64,000 bases of DNA from Tricholoma matsutake. Lineage: Eukaryota; Basidiomycota; Agaricomycetes; Agaricales; Tricholomataceae. Positions 2,441-52,592 of the stretch are shown here, in pieces. A model generated the notes under the pieces. That model was not told the DNA's origin, ran no database searches, and saw only the letters and a list, made by a program, of their open reading frames with translations. The translations under genes and the position numbers were made by a program. The DNA is taken from the NCBI GenBank assembly GCA_026075535.2, contig AP026542.1, forward strand, positions 12,276,001 through 12,340,000, in the 5' to 3' direction. The number at the start of each line of letters is the position of its first letter. Position 1 is the stretch's first letter.

Positions 2441-5400
2441 TGTGTTGAACTTCATCTTGGGCATCACCTTTAGTTCGGACCCGCTTCAAAGACATGGACA
2501 AAGATGATAGCACTGAAGGCATAGCATCACATCTGGTAAGTGAGTTGAGTAGTTGAGCATGGTCCAGGCTGGCGAGAGGATGGTTGTCCTTTAATAATGC
2601 ATTTTGAACCTCCAATGATCGCGAGCCAAAGTTTGCATCTAGTGGGTATGCAGCAACGACACGCAAAACATTGTACCGCGCTCCAGTAAAACAATCCTCT
2701 GCCTTGTTGATGGCTTCAAGCATATCATTGATCTCTTGCTTGGCGGTTGCGCGCGTCTGTAAACAACGGTCAGCAAAGAAGGGAGTGGACTCACTGTACG
2801 CACCAAGCATGAGAAAATTTCGTTGGGGATCAATGATCGAATTGCTTTCGCTAAGACGGCCGCAGCAATGGTATCTAAGTTGCCAGTCAGATAGCATTTG
2901 ACCTGGAACAGTAGAAGTAGCAATCGCCCATCACTGAGGCGTAACCACGCCATGAGGTCGGGACCCGCATTTTGGCCTGGGAGGCACCACCCTGTGTGCA
3001 TCGACTTAATCCATTTCTTCACGTCTTCAGGATCGTCGGCGATAAAGGCGATACCGTTAGATGGCACAACAGGGTCCCCATTAGGGATATCGAAATCCTG
3101 GAGAGTGTCACCATTCCCCCGCGTCACAATTGAAGCAGACTGACGCGCCCAAGGCGGAATTTCCCCGTGGAATTGGAAAACCTGATCCAACCGGGCGCCT
3201 TGTCGAAAGAGACGAGTGCAAGCTAAGAGGACGGCCTCTTCAAACGCTACCCCTTTATTAACCTGCATGCGATCTCGAATAAATTTGTCGGGTGTAAGCC
3301 CTTCTGTTTCAAAATAGCGCAAGACGCTCATAAGAGCCAACGGCTCTTCAACGATGATATCGGGTCCTTCACCCATGAAGCGAGCAAGGCCGAATTCTAT
3401 GAGGTCTTGTCGTTCCGCGTACCACATAGGATATTCTCCTCTGGTTATAAAGTTGTATATCGAGCTTGATAGTACGTTTAGTAATCCTTCCACTGCGCGA
3501 CAATCAACGGAAACCTAACTCGATGAGTACAAAAACGGACAGACCTCGAGCAATTTTCTCCCAAGCAAAACCCTGGACCTTGGATGGCTTGACGTCACTT
3601 TCGGTGGCCAAAAGCGAGCCCTCACCATCGATCGGGGTATATTTGGTGTAAGCGTGGACGTATGCATCAAGTAATTTATGGGGGGAACTTGGGCATGCAG
3701 TCGTCCACTCTCCGCCTATCAGTTCCTCGAGATACCTGGCGGTAAATCGGTGACTTCCCAACGTAGATTAGATTTGCCCCACTACATTAACATCACTCAC
3801 CGGCCGCGCAGCCACTCGAACATCCGAGAGACAAGACTAGTGCCAGATTCTGAAAGAAGGAAAGACGGTGGAAGATATCGAGATATATACGACAACTGGA
3901 TACCCGGGTTCTTGAAGTCGCCGGTGTTGCGAACTACATCCCATTGGTCCGGAACTTTGCCTACGCCCGACGCCAAGACGGTTTGGAAAAGGTCAAGTGA
4001 AAAGCCAGTGCCGGATACGATGAATTTAATACACCTTTCGGTGCTGACACGACTCCACCCACGAACTACTGGACGGAGGACAGGCTGACGAATTGTGGCA
4101 CTCGCATCCGCAAAAGCGCCCATGTATCGTTGGCCGGCAACCTGACCTTCATCAAGGATGTAGAAGAAATTGTCGTGACCAATTGCTGACCCTAGGACTG
4201 CCGTGGGCCCGGTGACGTCCAGCAAATCCAGCAGCGTCTGCAGGGACGCCCCCGCCAGACAGGAATTCACGAAAGCTAAAAAAGGGTCCTTGCCATCGAC
4301 TACTACGAGGGGAAGTAGTTGAAAGATTAGCCAATCGTGTTTTATGTTGTTGGGCAAAAGTCCTCCATTTTGCTTTTGGGCTGCTTCGATGAAGGTGCGG
4401 AACACCATCCACCGCGCCAGCAGCACTTTGTAGATCCGATTGAAGGCGATCTTCTCGTTCTTCTCGTTAGCGTCCATAACGTCCTCTGGTGCACGATCCT
4501 TGAAGATATTGTCGACCCACCCATCAGTGGTCGACATCCTTTCGATCATGAACTCCAGGTCTTGGGCGCCGATCCCATTAGTGTCCCGCGCGGAAACAAA
4601 ATAAAAGCCCCAATGCTTGCAGAGGCCCCCGAAGAGAAGTCGGGTCTTCCCCGCGCCAGAGGTATTACATAGAATACTGGAATGTCGTCAGCAAGATCGA
4701 AAAGCCGGTACCAGGGGGACCTCACCGATGTCTCTCACCGCTGAAAAGGTTGTCTACGTGAGGATTCGAGTCTTTGCCGAGGTCGTGCAAAAGAAGGTTA
4801 GGTATGTTATCTTTGATGGTCGGAATGGCAATGTCATGGTAGAACTTGCGGGTTGACTGGTCGACGGTCTCGGGTGGTTCCCATAATGGTAGATGAGGGT
4901 CGGCAAGAAACACTTCGATCTTGGGGCGAAGGTTCTCGAGAAACTTGTTAATGGATGCCTTGACAGTGGAGATACACATTGGCGGTGACACTGGGCAAGC
5001 ACGGGATTCTGGCCAGGCGGGTTGTCTAGGGGTGCGAAGGATGTCAACTGAAAATCGGAAAGCGAGGTCAGTATAAGGACGATGATGAGATGAGTGGTTG
5101 ATACTCACCGTCTGGGAATGGTGTCATCGCCCATGGGAAAAGCAACGCGGTCATGAGGGCAATTAGAACGGTAAGTGATTTTGGGCAAGAAACTATCAGC
5201 AGTATTCAGCCATGGAAAAACACCCTCACTCACCGGCATCCGGTTTCCGTACAATGATATGTAAACGATCGAGGGGAGGTTGATCTGGGAAGACGGTTAA
5301 GACGCTATCCCCAGGGTCTAGTTCTTCCCCAGATTCCCTAATAGACGCGACACGGCCGGGCAGAGTCTGTTTCGGTTTCAGATTGATAGAAATCCCCTCT

Positions 5401-20139: not shown

Positions 20140-21415
20140 GTGTGGATCTGATGTGCTTTCTGCTAAACAAAGCAGTTGCTCCATCTAAAGTGTCAGAACT
20201 CCCAATCCAGTATTGCGACATAGCGCACCTACCAGCACGCACTAAAACAGAGTGGAAGGATGCATGCCTAGAGGAATTAGAGGCTCTTTGAAAGAGGCAT
20301 GTCTATGATATTGTAGATCTCCCACATGGCCAAAAGGCCATTAAAAATAGATGGGTTCTCTGTAAAATCCAATGGAGAAAAACAGTCCAGACTTGTGGCC
20401 AAAGGCTTCTCACAAGTCGAAGGTGTTGACTTCAATGAGATTTTCTCACCTGTTGTCCGCTATGAGATGGTATGCTTCATGTTTGCCTTAGGTGCCTTAG
20501 AAGGCACATGATGGGACTCAATGTAAAAACTGTGTTCCTGTATGGCAAACTAGATGAGGAGATTTACATGCAACAACTGGAAGGCTTTTCCAGAGCGCAA
20601 AGTAATGCACTTACACCAAGCATTGTATGGCTTAAAACAAGCTGCCATAGCATGGTGGAGAGAACTGGAGGCATTTATGCAAAGCATTGGCTTCAAACAT
20701 GCCAGCTCTGATGCCAGCATATTCATTTACAAAGATGCCAAAGGCATTGTCATTGTGATAATTTATGTTGATGATGGCATGTTCTTGGGGCAGAACAAAC
20801 ACCTTGTAAATAAAAAGAAAAGTGCTTGCCTAAAGCACTGGGAGTGTCACCAAATTTCTTGGTATGTGCATAAAACAAAGTGCATCAAAAATCACTCTGG
20901 ACCAACAAAGCTACCTAGCCACCATGCTAGCACAGTTCGGAATGACAAATGCCAAGACTGCCCCAACTCCTCTTCTGATGGGATATGTCCCTATGGAAAA
21001 CACTGCAGTGCCTGATGTGGCATGTAGATTGAAGTATCAATCTGTGATTGGGTCTTTATTGTACCTGATGCTTGGAATGTGACCTGATATCACCTTTGCA
21101 GTAATCAAGATGTCACAGTTCTCAGCTAATCCAAGCCAGGAACATCTGGATAAGGCACAATATATAATGTGCTACCTTGTCAGTACTCAGAATTATGAGC
21201 TTATCTACGATGGTAGGCCTACAAGCATACACAGATTTGGACTGGAGATCTGACATAGTGAAATGAAGATCTACAATGGGCTACTTTTGATAACCCAGCC
21301 AATATGTTTACTAAAAATCTTGGGAGAATTCTCTTTGAGAACTTTAGAAGCTCCCTGGAATTAAATTCGAGGTTCAAACTTAGCAATAATCACTGCTGTA
21401 CAGTTTGTGGGGGGG
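20140..21415 (+). pseudogene. Ty1/copia reverse transcriptase and RNase H, broken
   Basis: RT blocks appear in three frames: GFSQVEGVDFNEIFSPVV (about 20416), QALYGLKQAAIAWW (about 20617) and IIYVDDGMFL (about 20760), where the YVDD catalytic pair is intact. Next comes SVIGSLLYLMLGM (about 21040) and a weak RNase H-like remainder to about 21300. At least three frameshifts and several stops are present. A G-rich tract (TTTGTGGGGGGG) just before 21416 fits the polypurine tract that primes plus-strand DNA. Confidence 0.8.
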
Positions 21416-24420: not shown

Positions 24421-24949
24421 GAAGTAAATGAGACATGATGAGGAAGAAAATGTGCAAATTCATAATAAATCAAAGCCCTTTGTGTTGTTATTGCAGCAAA
24501 TCACAGATATATTGAAAAATGTTGCAATACATCCTAAAAAGCTTGGTTTCTTGTTTCCCCATGCCTGGTGTGCTCAATGTGTGATGTGTCAGTGTGTAGA
24601 ACATGTGCTGCACATGTCTGAAGTGTGATGCAATAGGAATACAGTGGCTGGGGGCATGCAATGTATGTAAACTTTGCACTCCCCCCCATATTCCTATCGG
24701 AGTCCTAGGAGTCCAAGTTTTCTGATAAGAGTCTGATTGGAATCCGATAGGAGTCCTACTAGTCCAACACTAGTCCTAGGAGTCCGATAGGAATCTGATC
24801 GGAATGTATCTTGATGACCATGTACTTTTATTTCCAAGAAATTCCTAGTAAATTCTGAGTAAAGTCCTATGCAATTCCAACAGGTAGTAGTCGGAATACC
24901 ACACCATTTCGGAAGACTTAACTTGATGAAAGTGCTTAAAAAATAAATG

Positions 24950-25034
24950 GGCAGAGCAGGAATTGAACCCCAGACCTTGGAATATAAGTGACATGACTAC
25001 CAAACAAGTGCTCAACCAGTTGAGCCACAGGAGC
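24950..25034 (-). ncRNA. tRNA-like Pol III promoter, right-type, facing outward
   Basis: On the minus strand: A box TGGCTCAACTGGTTGAGC with a perfect D-stem (GCTC/GAGC) at 25010-25027, then B box GGGGTTCAATTCC at 24959-24971. The acceptor arms do not pair, so it is a derivative and not a working tRNA gene. Confidence 0.65.
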
Positions 25035-25905
25035 ATTAATAAATATGTAATATCAAGTCCATTTAAAGCACTTAGGATTAGTTCACTTATTTTTAACCTC
25101 TCTCACAAGAGCTCAAAAAAAAATTGTTGAGCCCTTGCATCGTTGTGAGGGAGTAGATAACTAATATAGATTAAAAAAAACCCCCCATGCAAATGTAGAG
25201 GGAGAATTAATTATACTATTTAATTATACTATTTTAAATTCTACAAAATGAAATGGGGGGGGTGGTGGTGTGTCATGTCAGCTGTCTCGTCAGCCCTGTC
25301 CCATCGTTTCCCCTCCCTCTTGTCTCAGTTGTGTCGCGCCTCTCTCACCTTGCCTCCCCCATGGCTTCCCTCCCTTCCCTCCTCTCCCCTCCCTCCTCTT
25401 CTGGTCATCGTCTCCCTTTCCCCTAGTCATTTTGTCCCCCCCCTTGTCACCCTCATAGTTCATCCCCCTTGTCATCTGCACCCATGAACCACCCTACAGG
25501 CAGCTGCTCATAGGCATGTTGTTTGGTGCCATCATCGTCCCTCCACACCATTCCTGTGCTCTCGCACCCCATATACACCCCGCGAGCAGTCACTCATGGT
25601 GGTGATGGGGGGTGCTGGATGTCATTGGTGTTGTGCACTCACGATCCACCCTATGAGCAGCAGCTCATAGGCATGGGGTGGGTGCATTGTCAATTCATCA
25701 GTGATGTGGCACAAGGGGAGGGGTCGGGTGGTGCTTACCGGGTGGGTATTCCCCTTCTGGGGTCTCCTGGTGTTGCTCCCCACACTCCTGACCATGATCA
25801 ATACCCTCACTTCCTGTTTTGACAGGGAGGAGGGGGGTTGCCAGGGGCGTCATTGGGTGTGGGTTTGGCTCGCGTCAGTCTGTTGTTACTCATGTAGATT
25901 AGAAC

Positions 25906-25971
25906 CTAGAAACAAAACAAATGAATTAGTTAGTTTACAAAAGTAAAAAATGAATGAAAAAAAAAACTTAC
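25906..25971 (-). other. Intron-like segment in element copy 1
   Basis: On the minus strand it starts GTAAGTTTTTTTTTT, has CTAACTAATTC as branch site and ends TTTCTAG. It follows directly on a GGGCCA/TCGTTTGG palindrome (25974-26004). Confidence 0.65.
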
Positions 25972-26165
25972 TATGGGCCAAAACGATGATTGCATCGTTT
26001 GGGTGTCGTTCGGCATCAAAACCAGTCATTTCCAGTCTTGGGGGCTCATCTAGAGATGGGGGTGAAGTGGGAGTGGTGGGAGTTGCTGGGTTGAGGTGGT
26101 TGAGGTGGGGGGGATGGAGGTGGTGTGCTTGTCATCATTGGTGGTGGTGGTGGGAGTGATGAGCT

Positions 26166-26210
26166 GGCAGGTGTGATGACATGGCTATGTGCTTTGTCAT
26201 CACACCTGCG
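26166..26210. repeat. Conserved palindrome with TGACAAAGCACATAGCC core
   Basis: A 15-bp perfect stem (GCAGGTGTGATGACA and complement). Related sequences sit at the equivalent place in the other elements (46690-46740, 41052-41108, 50855-50902), always between the left-type tRNA-like unit and the exon array. Confidence 0.7.
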
Positions 26211-26248
26211 GGAATGGTATGTAGTGTAGTATGATCACTTACCTGTAA

Positions 26249-26335
26249 TGACTGTTTAGCCTAATGGTATTGTTGTTGGTTTATGCTTACATAATCTTCT
26301 GTAATGTCAAGGGTTCAATTCTGGTGTGCATGTTG
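26249..26335 (+). ncRNA. tRNA-like Pol III promoter, left-type, facing outward
   Basis: A box TTTAGCCTAATGGTATTG at 26255 and B box GGTTCAATTCTGG at 26312. It resembles the units at 46585, 50742 and 41146 and differs from the right-type units. Confidence 0.6.
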
Positions 26336-26589
26336 ACTTTTTATACTATATTACTAAGCAAGGCTGCTTTCATTCCTATCAGAATCCTATGTTGTCTGAT
26401 GTCTTAGCATAACTTTGGAATAGTCCTATGTGATTCCTATGACCAGAACTTCCTTGGAAATTCTGATAGTCTGATCAGAATCACATTGGACTAAACCTGC
26501 TATTTCATGTCAATTTGGCTGGTGAAAATGACATTGGAATATGGTCAGATTCCTATAGGAATAAAGGGGGGAGTGTAAAGACCTCCGAT

Positions 26590-35110: not shown

Positions 35111-36095
35111 CATGTATTACTGAATTCTTGATCAGTGTGACTCAAGGAATATCCCATGTTCGGATGGTCTGGTGTAGTGCCCTTGAATTGCTATTTGCTG
35201 TTTCACATTCCATTGAGTTGGGACAAAGAACATGTACTGGCTGGATCAATTTATGGGATATGGGTTGTAATTTCTTTTGCAGATGTCCACGTGCATTGTA
35301 TGGATGCAAATTCAAATGTTTTGCAGCTGCATCAAGCTTGAGGCTGAGTTCAGTAATTTCTCATTCAGCATCCATGTTTTCATCAACCTCCTTCATCTTC
35401 AAAGGCCTTTGCTGATGTTTACCCATATTTTCTTTGATTGCCCATGCAAGACCCTTGATCCAACCTGATGCTATGACACAATTTTTTCCTTCACATTGAA
35501 TGTATTGCTGCTGGGCATGGAGATTCAACAACTCAGGATTGTGATATTTGGGAAAGGATCCTCTCCTGCTGGCATTGCAGAGGCAATAGGAATAAATGCT
35601 GACAAAACCACCCAAGTCCAGATGTGCCAGGGTACCAGATTGATGGCCAACACAAGGATTTTTGAAAACAGAGCCAGGATGTGGCTTATAATCGAAGTTG
35701 ATACTATCCAAGTACTGCAAAGAGAGATCATATAATTATTGATCATTTCAGTTTATCATCCCTACTTACTGGGCCTTTTTGCCAGTATTCTTCTTTCTAT
35801 TCACCCTTTCCTTCCCCTTCCCCTTCACCATTTCCATTTCCATTTCCATCTTCCTTTCCTTCCTCTTCTCCTTTCCTTTCTCCTTTTCCATCTCTTTTGC
35901 TTTTCCCTTTCCCTTTTTCTTGTTTTTCACCAATTTCCCATCCTCATCCTCATCTTCAAACTCCAAGGGCCCACCATTCAACAGCCAAGTATTCAAATCA
36001 GTGAAGGCATATGAAATCTTCTTGAACCCCCAAATGCCAATGTCTTCCTCATCAGTCGCCCCATCCAACCATGCCACAATCTGTGGATAAGCCAG

Positions 36096-36306
36096 TACTT
36101 TACAGTCCCCCACCTGTCCTAGTGGACTCTGACCGGACTGACCAGAGTCTGACTGGAGTCCGAGTGGAGTCTGAGTGGAGTCCAATTGAACTACACTAAG
36201 TCATATAGAGTTCAATCCCCCACTGGAGTCCAAGTGGAGTCCAACTGGGGTCCAACTGGAATGCATTTCAACCAAATGATAAGTCAATTAGATATGAGCT
36301 CAAAGA
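36096..36306 (-). mobile_element. Right end of a hairpin-exon element (same subfamily as 46309-48395)
   Basis: It starts CAGTACTTTACAGTCCCCCA and continues with GGAGTCCAACTGG-type repeats. It is nearly identical, inverted, to 48185-48395, up to GAGCTCAAAG. Homology then stops, so the copy is truncated or rearranged before its tRNA-like unit. It sits in the KDZ-associated gene. Confidence 0.8.
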
Positions 36307-39440: not shown

Positions 39441-39734
39441 TGAATATACATGGTGTTGCACCTGTCATATTTCATGAACCCTGATGTGTCGCAGTGCATC
39501 ACGGGCTATCACAGGGCATCACAGGGTGATTCAGTGTGCCCTGGGAAATAGCCTTAACCCTGGGAAAGTCTGGGTCAGAAAGTAATTTTCCTGATGTAAT
39601 ATAAAGTGTATTTATGCACTCAAACTTGAACCCAAACCCAGGTATTTGTCTCTTGAAGCTCACAATTAAGATCAAACAAAATTTATTAACTACATTGCTC
39701 GTGTCTCATCATGCAAGGGATACACATTTAAAAA

Positions 39735-39935
39735 AAGACCTCCCTTGCACAAGGTGCAAGGGGGAGTCTTACCAATATTTACATATAAAACTAATCTCCC
39801 CACACATCGAACATGAGGGGAGCACTACAATTATAAAGAAAAAGAAAGAAAAACCCTCACCCACATAAAACACAGGGGAGGGAGAAGGCATTACCATAAA
39901 TAACAATTGAAAAAACTGCCCCATGCAAAATGCAG
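39735..39935. repeat. Ladder of four GC-rich hairpins
   Basis: Hairpins CCCTTGCAC/GTGCAAGGG, CTCCCCACAC/..GGGGAG, CCCTCACCC/..GGGGAGGG and CTGCCCCATGC/GCAGGGGCAG, spaced about 60 bp by A/T-rich linkers. Equivalent ladders lie at 47706-47955, 52030-52115 and 25098-25204. Confidence 0.75.
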
Positions 39936-40396
39936 GGGCAGCCTGGTGGGGGTTCATCATCACGCGTGGGCCCTGCTCCTGTTGTCCTTGGCCACTGATG
40001 GGGCTGGATGCAGGTGGTGTGTCATTTGGTGGGTGAGGCTGGGGCCTGTGGGGTCTGTTTGCTGTGCTGGCACCCATGATCCACCCTATGAGCAGGGGCT
40101 CACAGGTGTGGGGGCGGGTGGTCAGTCAGTATTGGTATTGTGTCATTGTCGTTGTCATAGTGGTTGTTGTCAGCCATTACACCCATGATCCACCCCATGA
40201 GCAGTTGCTCATGGGGCTGGACACAGGTGGTGTGTCATTTGGTGGGTGAGGCTGGGGCCTGCAGGGTCTGTTTGCTCTGCTGGCACCTGTGATCCACCCT
40301 ATGAGCAGGGGCTCACAGGTGTGGGGGCAGGTGCTCAGTCAGTTGTGGGTGTGGCCCATTTCGTGTTGTCGCCATTTGTTACCTGTAGTTTAGATG

Positions 40397-40458
40397 CTAC
40401 AAAACAAAGCAATATATTTTGTTAGCTTATATAAACAAAAAAAAAGGAAAAAGCACAC
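40397..40458 (-). other. Intron-like segment 4 of copy 2
   Basis: Minus strand GTGTGC...GCTAAC...TTTTGTAG, directly after a GGGCCC palindrome (40462-40490). The donor is slightly off consensus. Confidence 0.55.
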
Positions 40459-40517
40459 TTAGGGCCCATCCAATCGCGTTGTTTGGGCCCATGTTCTGTC
40501 TGGCAGTAGAGTAGAAC

Positions 40518-40582
40518 CTATAAAACAAAAGAAACAAGTTAGTTAGTTTATAAAAACAAAAAGCAAACAAAAAAAAACTTAC
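40518..40582 (-). other. Intron-like segment 3 of copy 2
   Basis: Minus strand GTAAGTTTTTT...ACTAACTAAC...TTTTATAG, four bases after the palindrome at 40586-40619. Confidence 0.7.
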
Positions 40583-40677
40583 TTAGGGCCCAAACGGTGT
40601 GATCTGCATCATTTGGGCCTGCATTCTGTCCAATCACATCATTTGGGCCCCTGTTCTGTCTGGCAGTAGAGTAGAAC

Positions 40678-40731
40678 CTATAAAACAAAAGAAACAAGTT
40701 AGTTAGTATATAGCAAACAAAAAAAACTTAC
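40678..40731 (-). other. Intron-like segment 2 of copy 2
   Basis: Minus strand GTAAGTTTTTT...ACTAACTAAC...TTTTATAG, 54 bp, following the palindrome at 40735-40769. Confidence 0.7.
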
Positions 40732-40796
40732 TTAGGGCCCAAACAATGTGATCTGCATCATTTGGGCCCATGTTCTGTCTGGCAGTAGAGTAGAAC

Positions 40797-40877
40797 CTAT
40801 AAAACAAACAAAACAAGTTAGTTAGTATATAAAAACAAAAAACAAAAACAAAAAAAGCAAACAAAAAAAAAACATAC
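40797..40877 (-). other. Intron-like segment 1 of copy 2
   Basis: Minus strand GTATGTTTTTT...ACTAACTAAC...TTTTATAG, following the palindrome at 40880-40914. Exon lengths between the four introns are about 59, 95 and 65 nt. Confidence 0.7.
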
Positions 40878-41145
40878 TTGGGCCCCAAATGATGCAATCA
40901 GCATTGTTTGGGCCTGTGTTCTGTCCAGTCAGCTCATTTGTGGGTGGTGGTGATGGGGGAGTGGGCATGGGAGTGGTGACAGTGGGTGTCCACGCAGTGG
41001 TGGTGGTGGTAGAGCAGAGAGGAGGAAGAGGCAGTGGTGTCGTCGAGAGTGGTAGTGATGGTTGATGTCTTGATGATGCGGCTGTGTGCTTTGTCATGCA
41101 CAGCTGCCCCAATGGTACCTAGAGCAGTTAGTGGATATATGTTGT

Positions 41146-41225
41146 AAATCTATGTGGTGTAGTGGTTATGTTGGCTGTGATATAACATTTGTCATCTAAT
41201 GCCAAGGGTTCAATTCTGGCTCATG
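41146..41225 (+). ncRNA. tRNA-like Pol III promoter, left-type, facing outward
   Basis: A box TGTGGTGTAGTGGTTATG at 41153 and B box GGGTTCAATTCTGG at 41206. Very close in type to 46585-46664 (minus). Confidence 0.62.
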
Positions 41226-41639
41226 ACATTTATTTTATTACTTAGTAGTAATAAAGACTCCTGGTTAAATCCCAGTGGAGTTCCAGTGGATTCCTGGTAG
41301 AGTCCTGGTAGAGTCCTGGTGGATTCCTGGTGAGTCCCAATTCCTGGTAGAGTCCTGGTAGAGTCCTGAGAATTCCTCCTGGAAGAGTGTAATTTACCAG
41401 GAATCAACCAGGAATCCCCCTGGAATGGGAAGAGCCAGGAATATATACTTGAGTCACAACATGAACTAGCATGAAGTGGAACATTAGAATTGAAACAATC
41501 CATCAGTTGATGCTAGCACTAGGCACAATATCAGGATTTGAGAGCATGCCTTTGGTATACCTTGCATTGACCTCGATGATAAGGTTTTACACCCCTATCA
41601 AATATAAACAAAGTGCCCCAAGGGCTTGATATAGACCAT

Positions 41640-45639: not shown

Positions 45640-46300
45640 AGGCATGGCGAGTATCACTATGAAGTTTTCTTGCTTGTGTTGGCCTAAGCCAAGGAAGTCA
45701 AAATTGGTCCAATGATGAAATGATTCAGAAACCCTCGTGGTGGGCTCCAAAAATGATGATACTCAACCTGGGAAAACCACCAAAACTGCCAATGATATTT
45801 GCACAAGTCAGAGGAAGGGTGCAAGATGTTCTGAATGTTTGTGGTCTAACCTATGGGAAGACAACTAGTTGGTACTAGTCATAAAGGTAGTTCTATAAAA
45901 GAGGAAGGTGTTTGGTGCGGTCCGATGGAGTATTGGTCGATATTGAGGAGGATCGATGATATCAACAGTGAACAATGTTTATCATTGATGGTTGATGTGT
46001 GAATGCTGAGGACTTTTTGTTAGGTCAATAGTATACGAAGGCTATAGCCAATGGCTAAAAGTGTCAGGATGGTTACTAGTGTTAATGATAAGAAGGTTGA
46101 AAGAGGATCAAGGATGAGGATGATCACAGAGGTTTCTCGTTGATTAAGAAAACTTGTAGAAGCTTAGATTGTTTTAGAGAATAGATCAGATTCTTAGAAC
46201 TCTATATGAGGTGATATGTGAAGATGATTTCTGGTCATTTCCAAGTAGATACATACTACAGAGTTTTATATGTTTTAAAAGAAACTTCCTAAAATGGTAT
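45640..46300 (-). mobile_element. Probable 5' LTR/leader of the gypsy element, left part
   Basis: Non-coding sequence upstream of gag (minus strand). It resembles 24180-24420. It is interrupted at 46308 by the 2.1 kb element and resumes at 48396. No LTR partner lies on the 3' side, so boundaries are inferred. Confidence 0.45.
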
Positions 46301-46584
46301 AAGAAACAAGGTCTTTACACTCCCCCACCTTTCCCGTTGGACTGACCAGAGTCTGACTGGAGTCCACTGGGACTGGTCACCAGCCAACTGCCTGCAAAGT
46401 TGCCAGTCCGATCCCAGTCCAGTCCGACTGGACTCCAAGTGGAATCCACTCAAACACCGGATTCCACTCGGACTGGCCCAGTGGAGTCCAGTTGGAGTCA
46501 GGTTGGAGTCTGGTTGAATTCCGGTTGGAGTCCAGTTGGATTCCACTGGGAGTCCAGTCGGATTTTGCTCAAAACATGTGTAAG

Positions 46585-46664
46585 AGAAGGAATCGAACCC
46601 AGATCCCTGTTGGTTGCTTATGTAATCATAACACACAATATAACTGTTACACCACAGTACCTTG
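46585..46664 (-). ncRNA. tRNA-like Pol III promoter, left-type, facing outward
   Basis: Minus strand: A box TGTGGTGTAACAGTTATATTG and canonical B box GGGTTCGATTCC (46589-46600). The variable part is long and the acceptor does not pair. Confidence 0.65.
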
Positions 46665-46689
46665 TTTAAGGTATCATCTACTTGTGCTA

Positions 46690-46740
46690 GGTACTGTGTG
46701 CGGCTGTGTATGACAAAGCATATAGCCGTGTCATCAAATG
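46690..46740. repeat. Conserved TGACAAAGCA palindrome, copy 3
   Basis: Reads GGCTGTGTATGACAAAGCA and then TATAGCCGTGTCATCA. Aligns without gaps to the core at 26166-26210 (minus strand). Confidence 0.68.
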
Positions 46741-46897
46741 TGCCTGCTCATCACTCACCACCACCACCACCACCATTGATGGCCGCCTCCCTCCCTCCTC
46801 TCTCTACCACCACCACTGCGTGGACACCCACCACCACTGCTCCCATGCCCAATCCGCCATCACCACCACCCGCAAACGAGCCCAATGGATGGAACAC

Positions 46898-46932
46898 GGG
46901 CCCAAACGACACAGATCACATCGTTTGGGCCC
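46898..46932. repeat. GGGCCC palindrome 1 of copy 3
   Basis: GGGCCCAAACGA, spacer, TCGTTTGGGCCC. The donor just behind it is mutated (ATACGT instead of GTACGT or similar), while the T-rich tract, CTAACC and TTTAG are still present. Confidence 0.7.
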
Positions 46933-47086
46933 TACATACGTTTTTTTTTCGTTTGCTTTTTGTTTTTATAAACTAACCAACCTGTTTTTTTAGCTTTCTA
47001 GGTTATAATCTACTGGCAATGACACCACTACTTGCAAATGAGCCAACACAGGCCCAACTACACAATCTGTGTCGTTTGGGCCTTAT

Positions 47087-47151
47087 GTAAGTGTTTTTTT
47101 GCTTGGTTTTTGTTTTTATAAACTAACTAACTCGTTTTTTTAGTTTTCTAG
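47087..47151 (+). other. Intron-like segment, copy 3, second module
   Basis: GTAAGTG...AACTAACTAACTCG...TTTCTAG; the upstream palindrome (47051-47082) ends four bases before. An alternative acceptor TTTAG lies at 47143. Confidence 0.68.
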
Positions 47152-47237
47152 GTTATAATCTACTAGTAACGACACCACCACCCGCAAACGAGCCAATGCG
47201 GGCCCAAACGACGCAGACCGCGTCGTTTGGGCCCTAC

Positions 47238-47301
47238 GTGAGTTTTTCTCATTTGCTTTTTGTTTTTATGAACTAACTAACTCGTTTTTTTAGTTTTCTA
47301 G
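47238..47301 (+). other. Intron-like segment, copy 3, third module
   Basis: GTGAGTTTTTC...AACTAACTAACTCG...TTTCTAG; the palindrome 47200-47234 (GGGCCCAAACGACGC...) ends three bases upstream. Exon and intron are about 85% like the second module. Confidence 0.7.
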
Positions 47302-47361
47302 GTTATAATCTACTAGTAATGACACCACCACCCGCAAATGAGCCAACACACCCACCCCACG

Positions 47362-47625
47362 CCTGCGAGCCCCTGCTCGTAGGGTGGATCATGAGTGTGT
47401 GCAGTTGACAATGACAATGACAACAACAACAACGCCTACCAGCACCCCCCAAAGCCAACAACACACCCACCCCACGCCTGCAAGCCTCTGCTCGCAGGGT
47501 GGATGGGCGGTGAGAGCCCGTGCTGACGAGCAGCTGCTTGTCAGGTGGATGGCAGGCACACCAGGGATAAGACAACCATGGCACCCATCCCCATGCCTAC
47601 GAGCAACTGCTCATAGGGTGGATGA
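47362..47625. repeat. Four GAGCAACTGCTC-type hairpins
   Basis: Hairpins at about 47362-47392, 47470-47502, 47516-47550 and 47592-47625. Stems differ but keep pairing, for example CTGACGAGC with GCTTGTCAG versus CTACGAGC with GCTCATAG. Each ends in GGTGGAT. Confidence 0.78.
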
Positions 47626-47705
47626 TGGGTGCGGCTTGCTATGGCGACGGACGCATGCAAGGAGGGGTGGGCGATGACACCCACCCCAGACCACATCCCC
47701 CAACC

Positions 47706-47955
47706 CCCCCTCCCCTGCATTTTGCGTGGGGAGGGGTCTTTATTATTTTTAATTTATCTCTGCCCCCCCCCTCGCACTGAATGCGAGGGGTGTATATATT
47801 GTAGTACTTATGAATCCCCCCCTCGCGCTGAATGTGAGGGGTTTAGTTTTTTATATACATAGAAATAATCCCCCCCCTCTCGCAAGATGCGAGAGGGGTT
47901 TTTTTTTTGCTTATTATTATATTATCCCCACTCCCTCGTGTCCTACACGAGGGAT
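47706..47955. repeat. Ladder of five GC-rich hairpins
   Basis: Stems CCCCTCCCC/GGGGAGGGG, CCCCTCGCA/TGCGAGGGG, CCCCTCGCGC/..GTGAGGGG, CCCCTCTCGCA/TGCGAGAGGGG and CCCTCGTGT/ACACGAGGG, with loops of 3-5 bases. They are separated by T/A-rich linkers of 35-50 bp. They resemble intrinsic terminators but lie in a eukaryote. Confidence 0.8.
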
Positions 47956-48057
47956 GTGGTTAATTAAAATTTTTTGATCTTAATTGTTTGAAAAATGCCT
48001 CCTCGAAGAATATGAAAAGTTGAGTCATAAATAAACCTTATATTGATCCCCAATAAA

Positions 48058-48145
48058 TCTCCTGTGGCTCAAGTGGTTGAGCACACTTGTTTGGTTTGTC
48101 ATGTGATTCCTTATGGTGATGTCTTGAGTTCAATTCCTGCAGTAC
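48058..48145 (+). ncRNA. tRNA-like Pol III promoter, right-type, facing outward
   Basis: A box TGTGGCTCAAGTGGTTGAGC at 48063 with perfect D-stem, B box GAGTTCAATTCC at 48126. Nearly the same sequence as the unit at 24950-25034 (minus). Confidence 0.65.
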
Positions 48146-48404
48146 ACAAATTTATTTTGTGGGTACTTTATGAAATTCACCAAGTCCGAAGTCCTTTGAG
48201 CTCATATCTAATTGACTTATCATTTGGTTGCACTCGGACTCCACTCAGACTCCAGTTGGACTCCAATGGGGGATTGAACTCTACATGACTTAGTGTAGTT
48301 CAATTGGACTCCACTCAGAATCCACTCGGACTCCAGTGGACTCCAGTCAGTCCAGTCGGAGTCCACTAGGACAGGTGGGGGACTGTAAAGTACTGTAAGA
48401 AACA

Positions 48405-50467: not shown

Positions 50468-50741
50468 TGAAGCAGGAGGTCTTTACACTCCCCCCCCCCA
50501 ATCCAAGCAGACTCCACTCGGACACTTGGACTGTCCGAGTACTGTCCAAGTACTGTCTGAGGACTTTGCTCGGACTTTGCTTGGACTTCTTTGGCTGAAA
50601 GTCCTGCCAAACTAAATGTCCAGTCCGAGCTGAGTCCTCAGACTGTCCAAGCATCTGAGCGGAGTCTGAGTGGACCAGCACTTGTACAGTCCTAGGACTG
50701 TCTGAGTTGCTTATATAATTGACTGAAAAATCAGTGGCTAC

Positions 50742-50820
50742 TGCAGGGATTGAACCCTCATAGTCACATGATGAAGTACATTTAAGGCAACAATATAACC
50801 ATTAGACTAAAGTATCATTA
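50742..50820 (-). ncRNA. tRNA-like Pol III promoter, left-type, facing outward
   Basis: Minus strand: A box TTTAGTCTAATGGTTATATTG and B box GGGTTCAATCCC (50746-50757). Same type as 46585-46664 and 26249-26335. Confidence 0.62.
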
Positions 50821-51070
50821 CAGGTAGATAGTTTTATCTCTCTATGTACCACCCCAGCTGTGATCACAAATCAACACAGCTGCGTCACCAATGATGATGC
50901 CAGCTCATCACCGATCATCACCAACTACCACCACCACCATCACTTGATGATGACACCTCCCTCCCACGTCCCGCTGCTGCCACTGCCCCCTGAACACCCC
51001 ACAGCCATGGGCCCCATGCCAGCACACGATGAAATGGGCCCAAACGATGATAGAGTTGTTTGGGCCCCAG

Positions 51071-51135
51071 GTGAGTTTTTCTTTTTTCTTTTCTCATGTT
51101 TTCTTTAAGCTAACACATTTTTTCATTAATTATAG
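51071..51135 (+). other. Intron-like segment in copy 4
   Basis: GTGAGTTTTTC...GCTAACACA...AATTATAG. The palindrome 51036-51067 (GGGCCCAAACGATG...) ends three bases before the donor. Confidence 0.7.
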
Positions 51136-51630
51136 GTTATATCTATACTGTAGCAGCACAATGACCCCAAAACCACCCCAAACGAGGAACAATGATGAGA
51201 CCACGACCCAGCACCCACCCCCACCAGTGCAAGCAACTGCTCGCATGGGGAAGAGCAGCTGCTAACGACAACGACAATGACAGGGAATGACGACACCACC
51301 CACCCCAGCCCTATGAGCCACTGCTTGTAGGGTGGACAATGGGTGGAACAACAACAATTAGGGGAGACCCCAATGAAAGCCAGCACCCCCCATAACCACC
51401 ACAGGCAACTGCTCATGGGGTGGATGGGGGGTGTGAGAGTGCAGGTACTGACAGGGAGACAAAAAAGGCCCAAGAGATGTCAATGTCTCTTGGGTTCTAG
51501 ATAAGTTTTTTTTTTCCTTTTCTCATTTCATTTTTTGATGCTAACCAACTTTTTTTAGCTACAAACTACTACTGGTGACGACACCACCACCACTGCTGTG
51601 AGCCCCTGCTCACAGGGTGGAAGGTGAGGG

Positions 51631-51842
51631 TGAAGAGATGAGGGGGAAGGGAGACAAGGGGAAAGGGAGATGAGAGGGAAGGGAGACAAGAGGGAAGGGA
51701 GATGAGGGGGAAGGGAGACAAGAGGGAAGGGAGACAAGAGGGAATGGAGATGATGGGGAAGGGAGACAAGAGGGAAGGGAGACAAGAGGAAACAGAGATG
51801 AGAGGGAAGGGAGACAAGGGGGAAGGGAGATGACAATGAGTG
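51631..51842. repeat. GGGAAGGGAGACAAGAG minisatellite
   Basis: About twelve copies of a 17-18 bp unit alternating GGGAAGGGAGACAAG and GGGAAGGGAGATGAG. Purine-only strand; could form triplex or G-rich structures. Confidence 0.85.
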
Positions 51843-52192
51843 GGGACACCCATGACGACACCTGCCCCACACCTATGAGCTTCTGCTCATGGGGTGGTTC
51901 AGGGGGGAGAAGAATGGGGACAGGAGAGCGAGACGGCCAGGGGACAACCCGGGGAGAGACGAACACCACCACAAGCAACTATTGCTCGTGGTGAGTGTTT
52001 TTAATTTATTTTTATTATTGATAGTTATGGCCCCCTCCCATTGAGCTTGTGAGGGGAGGGCTTAGTATTATTTAATTACCCATATTAATTACCCCTCGCA
52101 CAGATGTGAGGGGGTCAATTTAATAATCCATTCATGATATATAAAAAATTAGATTTCAGTAATAAATAGATATGATGTATGTAACTTTAAAT

Positions 52193-52282
52193 GACTACTT
52201 GGCTTAAGTGGTAGAGTGTGCATGTTTTGTTGTCATGTGATTGCTTGTCCAGAAGGCTGTTGGTTCAATTCCTGCTGTGCAC
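52193..52282 (+). ncRNA. tRNA-like Pol III promoter, right-type, facing outward
   Basis: A box TTGGCTTAAGTGGTAGAG at 52199 with a foldable D-arm, B box TGGTTCAATTCC at 52261 with a T-stem of four pairs. Acceptor strands do not pair. Confidence 0.64.
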
Positions 52283-52592
52283 ACATTATTTTGTGAGACT
52301 TATAAGACTTTCTCTAAGACTGGAACTTGGACTTTACTTGGACAGTACTTTAGAAGGTGTAAATAAATGCACAATTGATGTTGTCTGAGCAAAGTCTGAG
52401 TGCAGTCTGAGTGCTGTCCTCAGACTTTACTCGGACAACTCGGACAGTCCTAGGACAGTCTGAGTGTCCGAGCAGAGTCTGAGCAGAGTCTGAGTGAAGT
52501 CCTTGGACAGTCTGAGTGTCTGAGTGTCCCAGCAGAGTCCAAGCAGAGTCCGCTTGGACTGGGGGGGGGAGTGTAAAGTACTGCGAAGCAGA

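Follow-up and report, generated by a model that had tools for sequence, protein, structure and literature searches.

A large, probably non-autonomous DNA transposon family with paired outward Pol III-type units in Tricholoma matsutake

A 64 kb stretch of the Tricholoma matsutake genome (contig AP026542.1, positions 12,276,001 to 12,340,000; hereafter the window) carries three near-complete members of one repeat family with both ends present, along with a degenerate relative and a lone end. Copy A, a 2088-bp element of subfamily T1 at 46308-48395 on the plus strand, is a complete non-autonomous DNA transposon, as seen from its ends, its target site duplication (TSD), and its empty site. The ends are inverted and have the form GAGGT/CAGTA-CTTTACA(C/G)TCCCCC. 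The left terminal repeat (46308-46334, plus strand) is AAGGTCTTTACACTCCCCCACCTTTCC, most other copies beginning with GAGGT, and the right one (48368-48395, minus strand) reads inward as CAGTACTTTACAGTCCCCCACCTGTCC. On both sides of the element is the same 8-bp TSD, TAAGAAAC (46300-46307 and 48396-48403), and the empty sister site, found at locus L006 of the same genome, has this target in a single copy.

Adjoining the terminal repeats are the left subterminal 11-bp repeats of the GGAGTCCAGTT type (46335-46565) and the right subterminal repeats (48225-48372). Next come two outward-facing Pol III-type units. The left one (46571-46654, minus strand) has the A box TGGTGTAACAG, the B box GGTTCGATTCC, and TTTT 14 nt beyond; the right one (48065-48158, plus strand) has the A box TGGCTCAAGTGG, the B box AGTTCAATTCC, and TTTT 17 nt beyond, and two AATAAA motifs lie immediately 5' of it (48030-48057, plus strand). 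Between the units, palindrome 1 (46898-46932) is followed by a candidate intron 1, placed by eye at about 46936-47001 and decayed at its 5' splice site. An imperfect palindrome 2 sits 5' of a putative intron 2 (47087-47151, plus strand; GTAAGT..CTAAC..CTAG, with an alternative 3' site, TTAG, at 47143), and palindrome 3, GGGCCCAAACGACGCAGACCGCGTCGTTTGGGCCC (47200-47234), is followed by a putative intron 3 (47238-47301, plus strand; GTGAGT..CTAAC..CTAG). The interior then continues with GAGC..GCTC hairpins (47350-47632) and a ladder of GC-rich hairpins separated by T/A-rich spacers (47700-47965).

The other copies in the window repeat much of this plan. Copy B (24667-26585, minus strand, subfamily T3) has both ends, both units, and the palindrome with its putative intron, and its TSD, CAATGTAT/CGATGTAC, is identical at 6 of 8 positions in flanks read by eye. 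Its palindrome carries one change, which places it outside the palindrome search pattern, and no GC ladder was recognised in it. Copy C (50476-52583, plus strand, subfamily T2) has a TSD, TGAAGCAG/CGAAGCAG, that agrees at 7 of 8 positions. A, B, and C all have two outward units and GAGC-type hairpins, and in each an intron-like stretch comes after a palindrome. Copy D (39470-41398, minus strand) is a degenerate left part that retains the left unit, palindromes, putative introns, and hairpins; neither a right unit nor a recognisable right end was found in it. A fragment at 36093-36305 (minus strand) is a lone T1 right end, 88% to copy A. The initial annotation had reported these three near-complete copies, the partial copy, and fragments; the copies are confirmed in place, and the exact borders of A, B, and C are now those given above.

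The whole genome (161.04 Mb in 13 contigs) was searched for ends, right units, and palindromes with zero mismatches permitted. The end motif occurs 1183 + 1185 times as an exact match versus 6 + 5 for the reversed control, giving a total of 2368 exact family ends in one fungal genome. Among the 100 ends listed there are 17 facing pairs spaced 1.74-2.51 kb apart, 16 of which were fetched for study. In 25 distinct short copies, the 8-bp TSD is perfect in 19, has one mismatch in four, and is absent in two. When the flanks are joined, a match spans the joint for 8 of the 25 within the sequence examined, one of these matches being merely 58 nt long and two below 73% identical. All three empty sites read base by base (copy A/L006, L003/L068, and L057/L072) have a single target copy. 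Terminal inverted repeats, a fixed-length TSD with empty sites, and the lack of a transposase of its own are class II characters found in this family, which is probably a large set of non-autonomous class II terminal inverted repeat (TIR) transposons.

Such elements would be moved by a transposase acting in trans, which would recognise the CTTTACASTCCC ends; the subterminal 11-bp repeats would probably be recognised too. A longer relative with the same ends and a transposase gene had been suggested; none was found in the small part of the genome examined, and no transposase could be tied to the family ends among the few transposase copies covered. One candidate source is the KDZ transposons, from which the elements may derive. 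They are abundant in this genome (831 candidates, 165 matches), one copy here likewise makes an 8-bp duplication, and two copies, at L069 and L073, adjoin a family end. However, of the 7 of 165 matches inspected, the single one between family ends, the 8.1 kb KDZ copy at L073, is a nested insert with ends (CACCTGATAATCC) and an 8-bp duplication (TGTTCACT) of its own, in a host element of the 2 kb type whose duplication is GGACCAA(C/T). Because this copy proved to be nested, KDZ was dropped as the autonomous partner for that clade. The other six KDZ stretches examined have no pair of family ends, the family end at L069 has no partner across the 15 kb examined, and none of 11 KDZ places taken from the first 5.09 Mb of contig C1 lies between neighbouring facing exact ends. 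Descent from KDZ is considered unlikely.

Other transposases have been considered as well. The 4.9 kb element L064 holds a DDE_Tnp_4 (Harbinger-type) transposase gene (Pfam PF13359), which was rejected as the family transposase since it sits in a nested stretch; within the element, T2 sequence spans about 1-1639 and 4790-4893, and the insert's own ends were not identified. No family end lies in the roughly 1.1-1.4 kb 3' flanks of 7 of 151 hAT matches, and among 8 of 60 MULE matches inspected with 1.5 kb flanks, five have no match and three have one unconvincing two-mismatch match. MULE TSDs are about 8-11 bp long. In hAT transposons, T at position 2 and A at position 7 of the TSD are preferred; the 19 family TSDs do not show this preference. 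With inverted ends, subterminal repeats, 8-bp TSDs, no transposase, and many copies, the family resembles non-autonomous TIR elements of the hAT or Zisupton/KDZ type. Non-autonomous TIR elements are typically a few hundred bp long. This family differs from typical hAT- or Zisupton-type derivatives in its 2 kb length, its two Pol III units, and its interior with intron signals, and it is assigned to no superfamily. A TSD of 8 bp is described for Zisupton and usually also for hAT (PMC12730594).

The outward units are found in most copies. An A-box/B-box unit facing outward is present on the left in 26 of 28 copies and on the right in 26 of 28, versus 1.7 and 2.0 in dinucleotide shuffles, the left hit in L049 resembling a chance match and the right A box of L051 being weak. 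This outward placement far exceeds chance. The same 28 copies have 31 further units elsewhere or in the other orientation (10.15 expected). In 50 of the 52 unit hits, the B box is followed 0-17 nt later by a T run. When the 64 kb window is scanned for an A box and a B box (at most one mismatch each) with TTTT, eight matches are seen; seven coincide with the outward units of copies A-D on their left and right sides, and one, the sole out-of-place unit that this stricter scan shows in A, is in the subterminal repeats of A, leaving zero box units outside the elements. In the genome, the right unit occurs 762 + 727 times (control, 0). Among the 64 right units listed on C1, an exact end lies 100-800 bp to the outside of 22 (0.4 expected), 37 have one or other end, and 27 lack any exact end where one would be expected.

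The initial annotation had called these units tRNA-like. The promoter boxes stand, but a tRNA identity does not, as the tRNA covariance model, at E values up to 1, gives no tRNA-family match in the window, in copy A, or at 12 loci, and tRNA genes were rejected on that basis. Judged from their sequence, the units appear to be Pol III-type promoters whose tRNA fold is gone. ARAGORN, run at a lowered threshold with introns permitted, gives 10-15 calls per element among the calls listed, which were judged to be noise, and the sole tmRNA match (L018, 17.1 bits) is far under the gathering score of 47.

tRNA-derived SINEs share the A and B boxes, the T-run terminator, and the lost tRNA fold. Internal Pol III promoter boxes, one of the criteria for a SINE, are present at the sequence level, and the type-2 boxes with their terminators could suggest a SINE-like retroelement in which the units drive retrotransposition. 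However, SINEs insert without inverted ends and with TSDs of variable length, and here the ends are inverted and the duplications are exact and 8 bp long. The empty sites also speak against a SINE-like element, the two units point away from each other, and the T run behind nearly every B box should end a full-length transcript. Also unlike tRNA-derived SINEs, the two divergent units are inside DNA-transposon ends, and no SINE-type 3' tail is seen. This evidence is close to a refutation, and a SINE-like retroelement is highly improbable. Another SINE-type repeat of the same genus is megB1 of Tricholoma, a dimeric Alu-like retroelement (PMC10627285, citing Babasaki 2007) that in section Caligata has a copy outside the rRNA gene (PMC10627285). 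Compared by description only, megB1 is similar in being a short SINE-type repeat and different in being described as a retroelement, the matsutake family being a DNA transposon.

A fixed internal order, despite heavy divergence, had been taken to imply selection on structure. The order itself is borne out across the diverged subfamilies. Both units were seen, facing outward, in T1-T4, only the right unit was seen in T5 (L063), and only the left in T6 and D; among five subfamilies the right units are plainly homologous. The step from order to selection fails, since common descent also yields order, and the internal order is explained by descent. One could then dispense with selection altogether, with the order inherited from a single ancestor and the box units being the remains of two SINEs inserted into it, as proposed for MER6. 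The homology of the right units agrees with this, and a MITE with a SINE domain is known: MER6 is described as an 865-bp mariner MITE that carries a V-SINE domain and makes a TA duplication (PMC6887750). As described there, MER6 is likewise a non-coding DNA transposon with a SINE-derived part, but it has one such part and a TA duplication, and the matsutake family has two outward units, an 8-bp duplication, and intron signals. Against the absence of selection, the boxes and T run persist where their surroundings do not. Conservation in the right boxes is 0.86 versus 0.64 between the boxes and 0.56 outside, and in the left boxes 0.74 versus 0.43 and 0.33, in comparisons of 5 and 6 representatives that are kin by descent. 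The survival of the boxes on each side in 26 of 28 copies and the outward facing of both units in T1-T4 also speak against it, and an origin by descent alone is rather doubtful. The greater conservation of the A and B boxes across subfamilies argues for selection, which appears best supported for these boxes.

The interior is less easily read. Putative introns of the form GTRAG..CTAAC..YAG follow palindromes in T1-T5, and intron signals extend beyond these subfamilies to D, L083, and the L030/L038 type. The first intron of copy A, placed by eye, has lost its GT. The putative exons are 86 nt long in 26 of 31 measured; coding exons were rejected since this length is not divisible by three, though 28 of the 31, taken singly, have one open frame. 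Ten of the 14 frames of at least 70 aa in copy A were searched in Pfam (70-152 aa), with no match, and as far as this goes the elements are non-coding, as had been claimed. The longest ATG frame in 20 T1 interiors (plus strand only) is 71-177 aa, the open frame over the palindrome has no protein relative at E <= 0.001, and all Rfam microRNA-like and sRNA matches are under the gathering score. The palindrome occurs in 58 distinct 35-mers whose changes are mostly CpG transitions, and its variation is mostly CpG decay. Standard Watson-Crick pairing exceeds expectation at three pairs (45 versus 34.5, 35 versus 28.4, and 40 versus 36.4), with no excess at four other varying pairs; RNA covariation was rejected as proof of selection on structure, as the excess is modest and the changes mostly CpG. 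In 20 T1 copies, ancestral CpG retention is 0.455 between the units (96 columns) versus 0.311 at or outside them (20 columns), a contrast that 0 of 10000 column permutations reached and whose direction agrees in 16 of the 20.

The palindrome arm with GTRAGTTTTT occurs 938 + 910 times in the genome (control, 0), and there are 4052 palindrome sites, more than exact-ended elements account for, suggesting that the interior may have a history separate from the ends. It could be an independent noncoding RNA gene family, or an older transposon, captured by several end types. For example, L083 has, by eye, a palindrome, intron signals, GAGC hairpins, and a GC hairpin with a T run, and no family end within its 1.2 kb. 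GAGC hairpins and palindromes are modules of A, B, and C, as had been claimed, but they also occur beyond exact-ended elements. Among the 81 palindrome sites listed on C1, 34 lack both an exact end and a right unit where these would be expected; on the other hand, 47 have an end or right unit, and 37 (3.2 expected) face an exact end at most 2.6 kb away. The initial annotation had named independent occurrence of the modules as a refutation of its plan, and the palindrome counts go part of the way towards it. The remaining palindromes may be old copies with mutated ends, as the searches tolerated no mismatch. A captured interior is rather unlikely.

The account preferred here, and the likelier one, is that of a non-autonomous class II family with two ancestral Pol III-type units and a gene-like interior. 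Before the subfamilies split, the ancestor would have had a type-2 Pol III promoter unit near either end, both facing outward, and these would have flanked a gene-like stretch containing intron signals, hairpins, and AATAAA motifs. Selection may have kept the Pol III boxes of source copies as the remainder diverged, as the conservation suggests, and most copies would now be decaying, chiefly at CpG. The units might produce short Pol III transcripts or serve as docking sites for TFIIIC that keep the ends or the interior open.

The usual view of non-autonomous DNA transposons is one of passive ends with filler. That a Pol III-type promoter pair outlasted its surrounding sequence suggests that internal promoters can matter to the success of a DNA transposon. 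We found no description in the literature of a DNA transposon with two outward Pol III promoters and an intron-bearing, hairpin-rich interior. The family may explain part of the 25.4% of unclassified repeats described for matsutake (PMC10211490). A more speculative and improbable idea is a self-insulating transposon, in which the units would be chromatin borders carried along with the element, protecting a spliced, hairpin-rich noncoding RNA gene from silencing directed at the ends, the RNA aiding mobilisation. The higher CpG retention between the units in the T1 copies is in line with this idea. The analogy is with tDNA/TFIIIC barriers and B2 SINE boundaries, described as experimentally tested borders (PMC2040200, PMC8136502), in which Pol III units likewise border silent chromatin; the border role in matsutake is a guess from this likeness. 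With its many copies, the family offers natural replicates for asking whether TFIIIC sites block the spread of methylation.

The family moves by DNA-type transposition. Its type copy A (window positions 46308-48395; subfamily T1) carries TAAGAAAC on either flank, as read from the sequence, and its ends, read inward, are AAGGT-CTTTACACTCCCCCACC and CAGTA-CTTTACAGTCCCCCACC; in most other copies, GAGGT replaces AAGGT. The genome searched comprises 161,040,721 bases in 13 contigs, with the window at C5:12276001-12340000. From it, 25 distinct short copies were assembled, namely copy A, seven other high-scoring matches to A, copy C (50476-52583) and 16 facing pairs, the last taken from 17 spaced 1.74-2.51 kb among the first 100 listed ends, with the pair at C1:5033079 (C1 being a contig) left out. 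An 8-bp duplication is perfect in 19 of the 25, has one mismatch in four (copy C and the numbered loci L005, L049 and L060) and is absent in two (L058 and L061). For empty sites, the element and one copy of the duplication were removed and the joined flanks compared with the stretches of the genome examined. Within those stretches, a match runs across the joint for 8 of 25 sites: the best are 78-94% over 259-298 nt (copy A, L003, L055, L056 and L057), L008 and L059 reach 67-72%, and the L052 match is just 58 nt. The target is unduplicated in all three joints checked letter by letter (copy A versus L006, 90%; L003 versus L068, 94%; L057 versus L072, 89%). It is from the duplications and these unduplicated empty sites, therefore, that the mode of movement follows.

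The internal plan was mapped by patterns in 28 copies: 23 of the 25 loci other than copy A's own, copies A, B (24667-26585), C and D (39470-41398), and a T4 element around a nested KDZ copy. From the left, the order is end, subterminal repeats, left unit (minus strand), palindrome or palindromes, GAGC hairpins, GC hairpins, AATAAA, right box unit (plus strand) and end. It is constant wherever the parts are recognized, stray pattern hits aside, which bears out the fixed order proposed in the initial annotation. The accompanying view that no described element has this plan agrees with the open-access papers searched, among which none was found; Repbase lay outside the search. Recognition by the mapping patterns is incomplete. 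They miss the left unit in ten T1 copies (a looser box scan finds it in nine, not in L060, and the L049 match looks like chance), the palindrome in L059 and in B, which has one with a single change, the GC ladder in B, and the right unit in D and L051. Copy C also holds a G/A-rich tandem repeat (51644-51830; 16 bp, 11.7 copies), and a tandem-repeat scan lists no such 16-bp array in A. GAGC..GCTC hairpins occur outside recognized elements at window positions 20170, 38150, 38791, 39130 and 63965.

The outward units near the two ends carry Pol III-type A and B boxes. With at most two mismatches allowed in the A box and one in the B box, 26 of 28 copies show a left unit (1.7 in dinucleotide shuffles; missed in L060 and the T4 element) and 26 likewise show a right unit (2.0 in shuffles; missed in D and the T4 element). 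The T4 element does have units of its own, with variant B boxes. Box hits elsewhere or in the other orientation number 31 across the 28 copies, versus 10.15 in shuffles. A stricter scan of the whole window, with a T run required, gives eight units, of which seven sit where the four copies should have them and the eighth lies in copy A's subterminal repeats. Both units are seen in T1-T4, the right unit alone in T5 (L063), and the left unit alone in T6 (L043) and D.

These units had been called tRNA-like. The promoter boxes stand, and a tRNA identity is rejected, as a tRNA finder and Rfam at gathering scores return nothing in the window, and Rfam at E up to 1 matches no tRNA family in A or a further 12 loci. 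What comes closest is a tmRNA match in L018 (17.1 bits versus a gathering score of 47). We read the units as promoters, not tRNAs. Between subfamilies, compared through hand-chosen representatives, one per subfamily (five for the right unit, six for the left), agreement in the right unit is 0.86 in the boxes, 0.64 between them and 0.56 outside, and 26 of 5000 random two-block draws equal the boxes; in the left unit, it is 0.74 versus 0.43 and 0.33, with 9 of 5000 draws as good. Parts of the right unit outside its boxes, GTCATGT and the TTATTTT terminator among them, are well kept too. The right unit occurs 762 + 727 times genome-wide (control 0). For 22 of the 64 listed in the opening 5.09 Mb of C1, an exact end lies 100-800 bp away on the outward side (0.4 expected after random shifts; wrong orientation, 1). 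One end or both stand at the expected distance for 37, and for 27 neither does.

Between the units lies a repeated pattern: GGGCCCAAAC..GTTTGGGCC or a close form, within a few bases GTRAG or GTATG, then a CTAAC-type branch site and YAG. It is common to T1-T5, D, the L030/L038 type and L083, and is not demonstrated in T6. Judged by pattern, the intron set is complete in 33 of 50 units in T1, 4/4 in T2 (L059 left out) and 2/2 in D; in T3 (type copy B; 1/4), T5 (1/3), L030/L038 (2/4) and L083 (1/2) the denominators include wrong-strand hits, as does most of that in T4 (4/14). The intron-like lengths are 47-84 nt. Many T1 failures have ATAAGT in place of GTAAGT, which is what CpG decay would give. 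A palindrome arm followed by GTRAGTTTTT occurs 938 + 910 times genome-wide (control 0), and from such signals we infer splicing. Of 31 T1 exons flanked by introns, 26 measure 86 nt, a length with which any frame would shift at every repeat; because of this, and because ten copy A frames have no Pfam match, we read the interior as non-coding.

The palindromes tell against the selection on structure that the initial annotation proposed. Among 58 distinct palindromes (65 sites), pairing exceeds independence at three varying pairs (45 vs 34.5, 35 vs 28.4 and 40 vs 36.4) and does not at four others, and the changes are mostly transitions at CpG positions, with most remaining stem positions invariant. 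Palindrome sites number 4052 genome-wide (control 0). In 37 of the 81 sites listed for C1, the palindrome faces an exact end no more than 2.6 kb away (3.2 expected). Independence of the modules from the common plan holds in part: an end or a right unit accompanies 47 of the 81, in keeping with the plan, and the remainder depart from it. By eye, L083 (C1:860300-861500), a palindrome site, shows intron signals together with GAGC hairpins and a T-run-bearing GC hairpin, and has no exact end nearby and no CTTTACA end. The site count, the partial association with ends and L083 together point to an interior that extends wider than the exact-ended family, through copies that are old, additional end types or a distinct element. 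Among the listed sites, identical copies of the L083 palindrome lie at C1:957473 and 1052066.

In T1, copies differ from the majority by about 1-5% at non-CpG sites and retain 27-47% of ancestral CpGs, depending on the segment; this low divergence with heavy CpG loss suggests methylation. Retention is 0.455 between the units (96 columns) versus 0.311 at and outside them (20 columns), with 0 of 10000 permutations as large and 16 of 20 copies agreeing in direction, a contrast limited by the small number of outer columns, by uneven base composition, by internal hairpins and by columns that are not independent. Fission yeast tDNAs stop heterochromatin via Pol III and TFIIIC (PMC2040200), and mouse B2 SINEs can act as DNA methylation borders (PMC8136502). 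An insulating role for the Pol III-type units would fit, though support for it is weak.

Transposase matches are abundant in the genome (KDZ 165, hAT 151, MULE 60). The longer, transposase-encoding relative with the family's ends that had been anticipated did not appear at the 7 KDZ, 7 hAT and 8 MULE places examined. In the first 5.09 Mb of C1, none of 16 transposase places (11 KDZ, 3 hAT and 2 MULE) is enclosed by adjacent exact ends that face each other at a spacing under 400 kb. The KDZ copy at L073, the most promising one, was rejected as a source, being nested, with its own ends CACCTGATAATCC and its own 8-bp duplication TGTTCACT; its host is the T4 element, with duplication GGACCAAC/GGACCAAT. 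The nested transposon is 8.1 kb long (L073 position 3103 to L075 position 1743, about C1:3002102-3010243), with ends CACCTGATAATCCCACC.

Genome-wide counts of CTTTACASTCCCCC are 1183 and 1185 on the two strands (reversed control, 6 and 5). Scanning the genome with the 2 kb element gives 3198 candidates and, with 40 of them scored, at least 198 matches. A core is common to at least six end subtypes: T1, T2 (type copy C; end CCCCCCCC), T3 (end CCATATTCC), T4 (GAGTA..CCACCTATTCC), T5 (CTGAA..CCACAGAGTCC; 79 + 77 genome-wide at one mismatch or fewer) and T6. The 100 ends listed for C1 include 11 neighbouring pairs that face each other across more than 2.6 kb, and four of these (L063-L066) were examined. 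L064 (C1:4930579-4935861) is a T2 element with a nested stretch that carries a DDE_Tnp_4 gene; L065 (C1:5070605-5075872), 140 kb away, is nearly as long, with flanks that match in reverse orientation, and the two look like a segmental duplication. L063 (C1:4679823-4686508) may be a composite: its two CTGAACTTTACACTCCCCCACAGAGTCCT ends are identical, no target duplication flanks them, and the 6.3 kb that they enclose hold a coiled-coil-like frame twice, along with part of a gypsy-like integrase frame (frames named by eye). At L045/L046 (C1:1782688 and 1786068), a pair of family ends 3.4 kb apart point the same way, and their 8-bp flanks are reverse complements of each other (GACAGTAG/CTACTGTC), as if an element had been partially inverted. 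Retroelement-like frames, judged by eye, are also present in the window.
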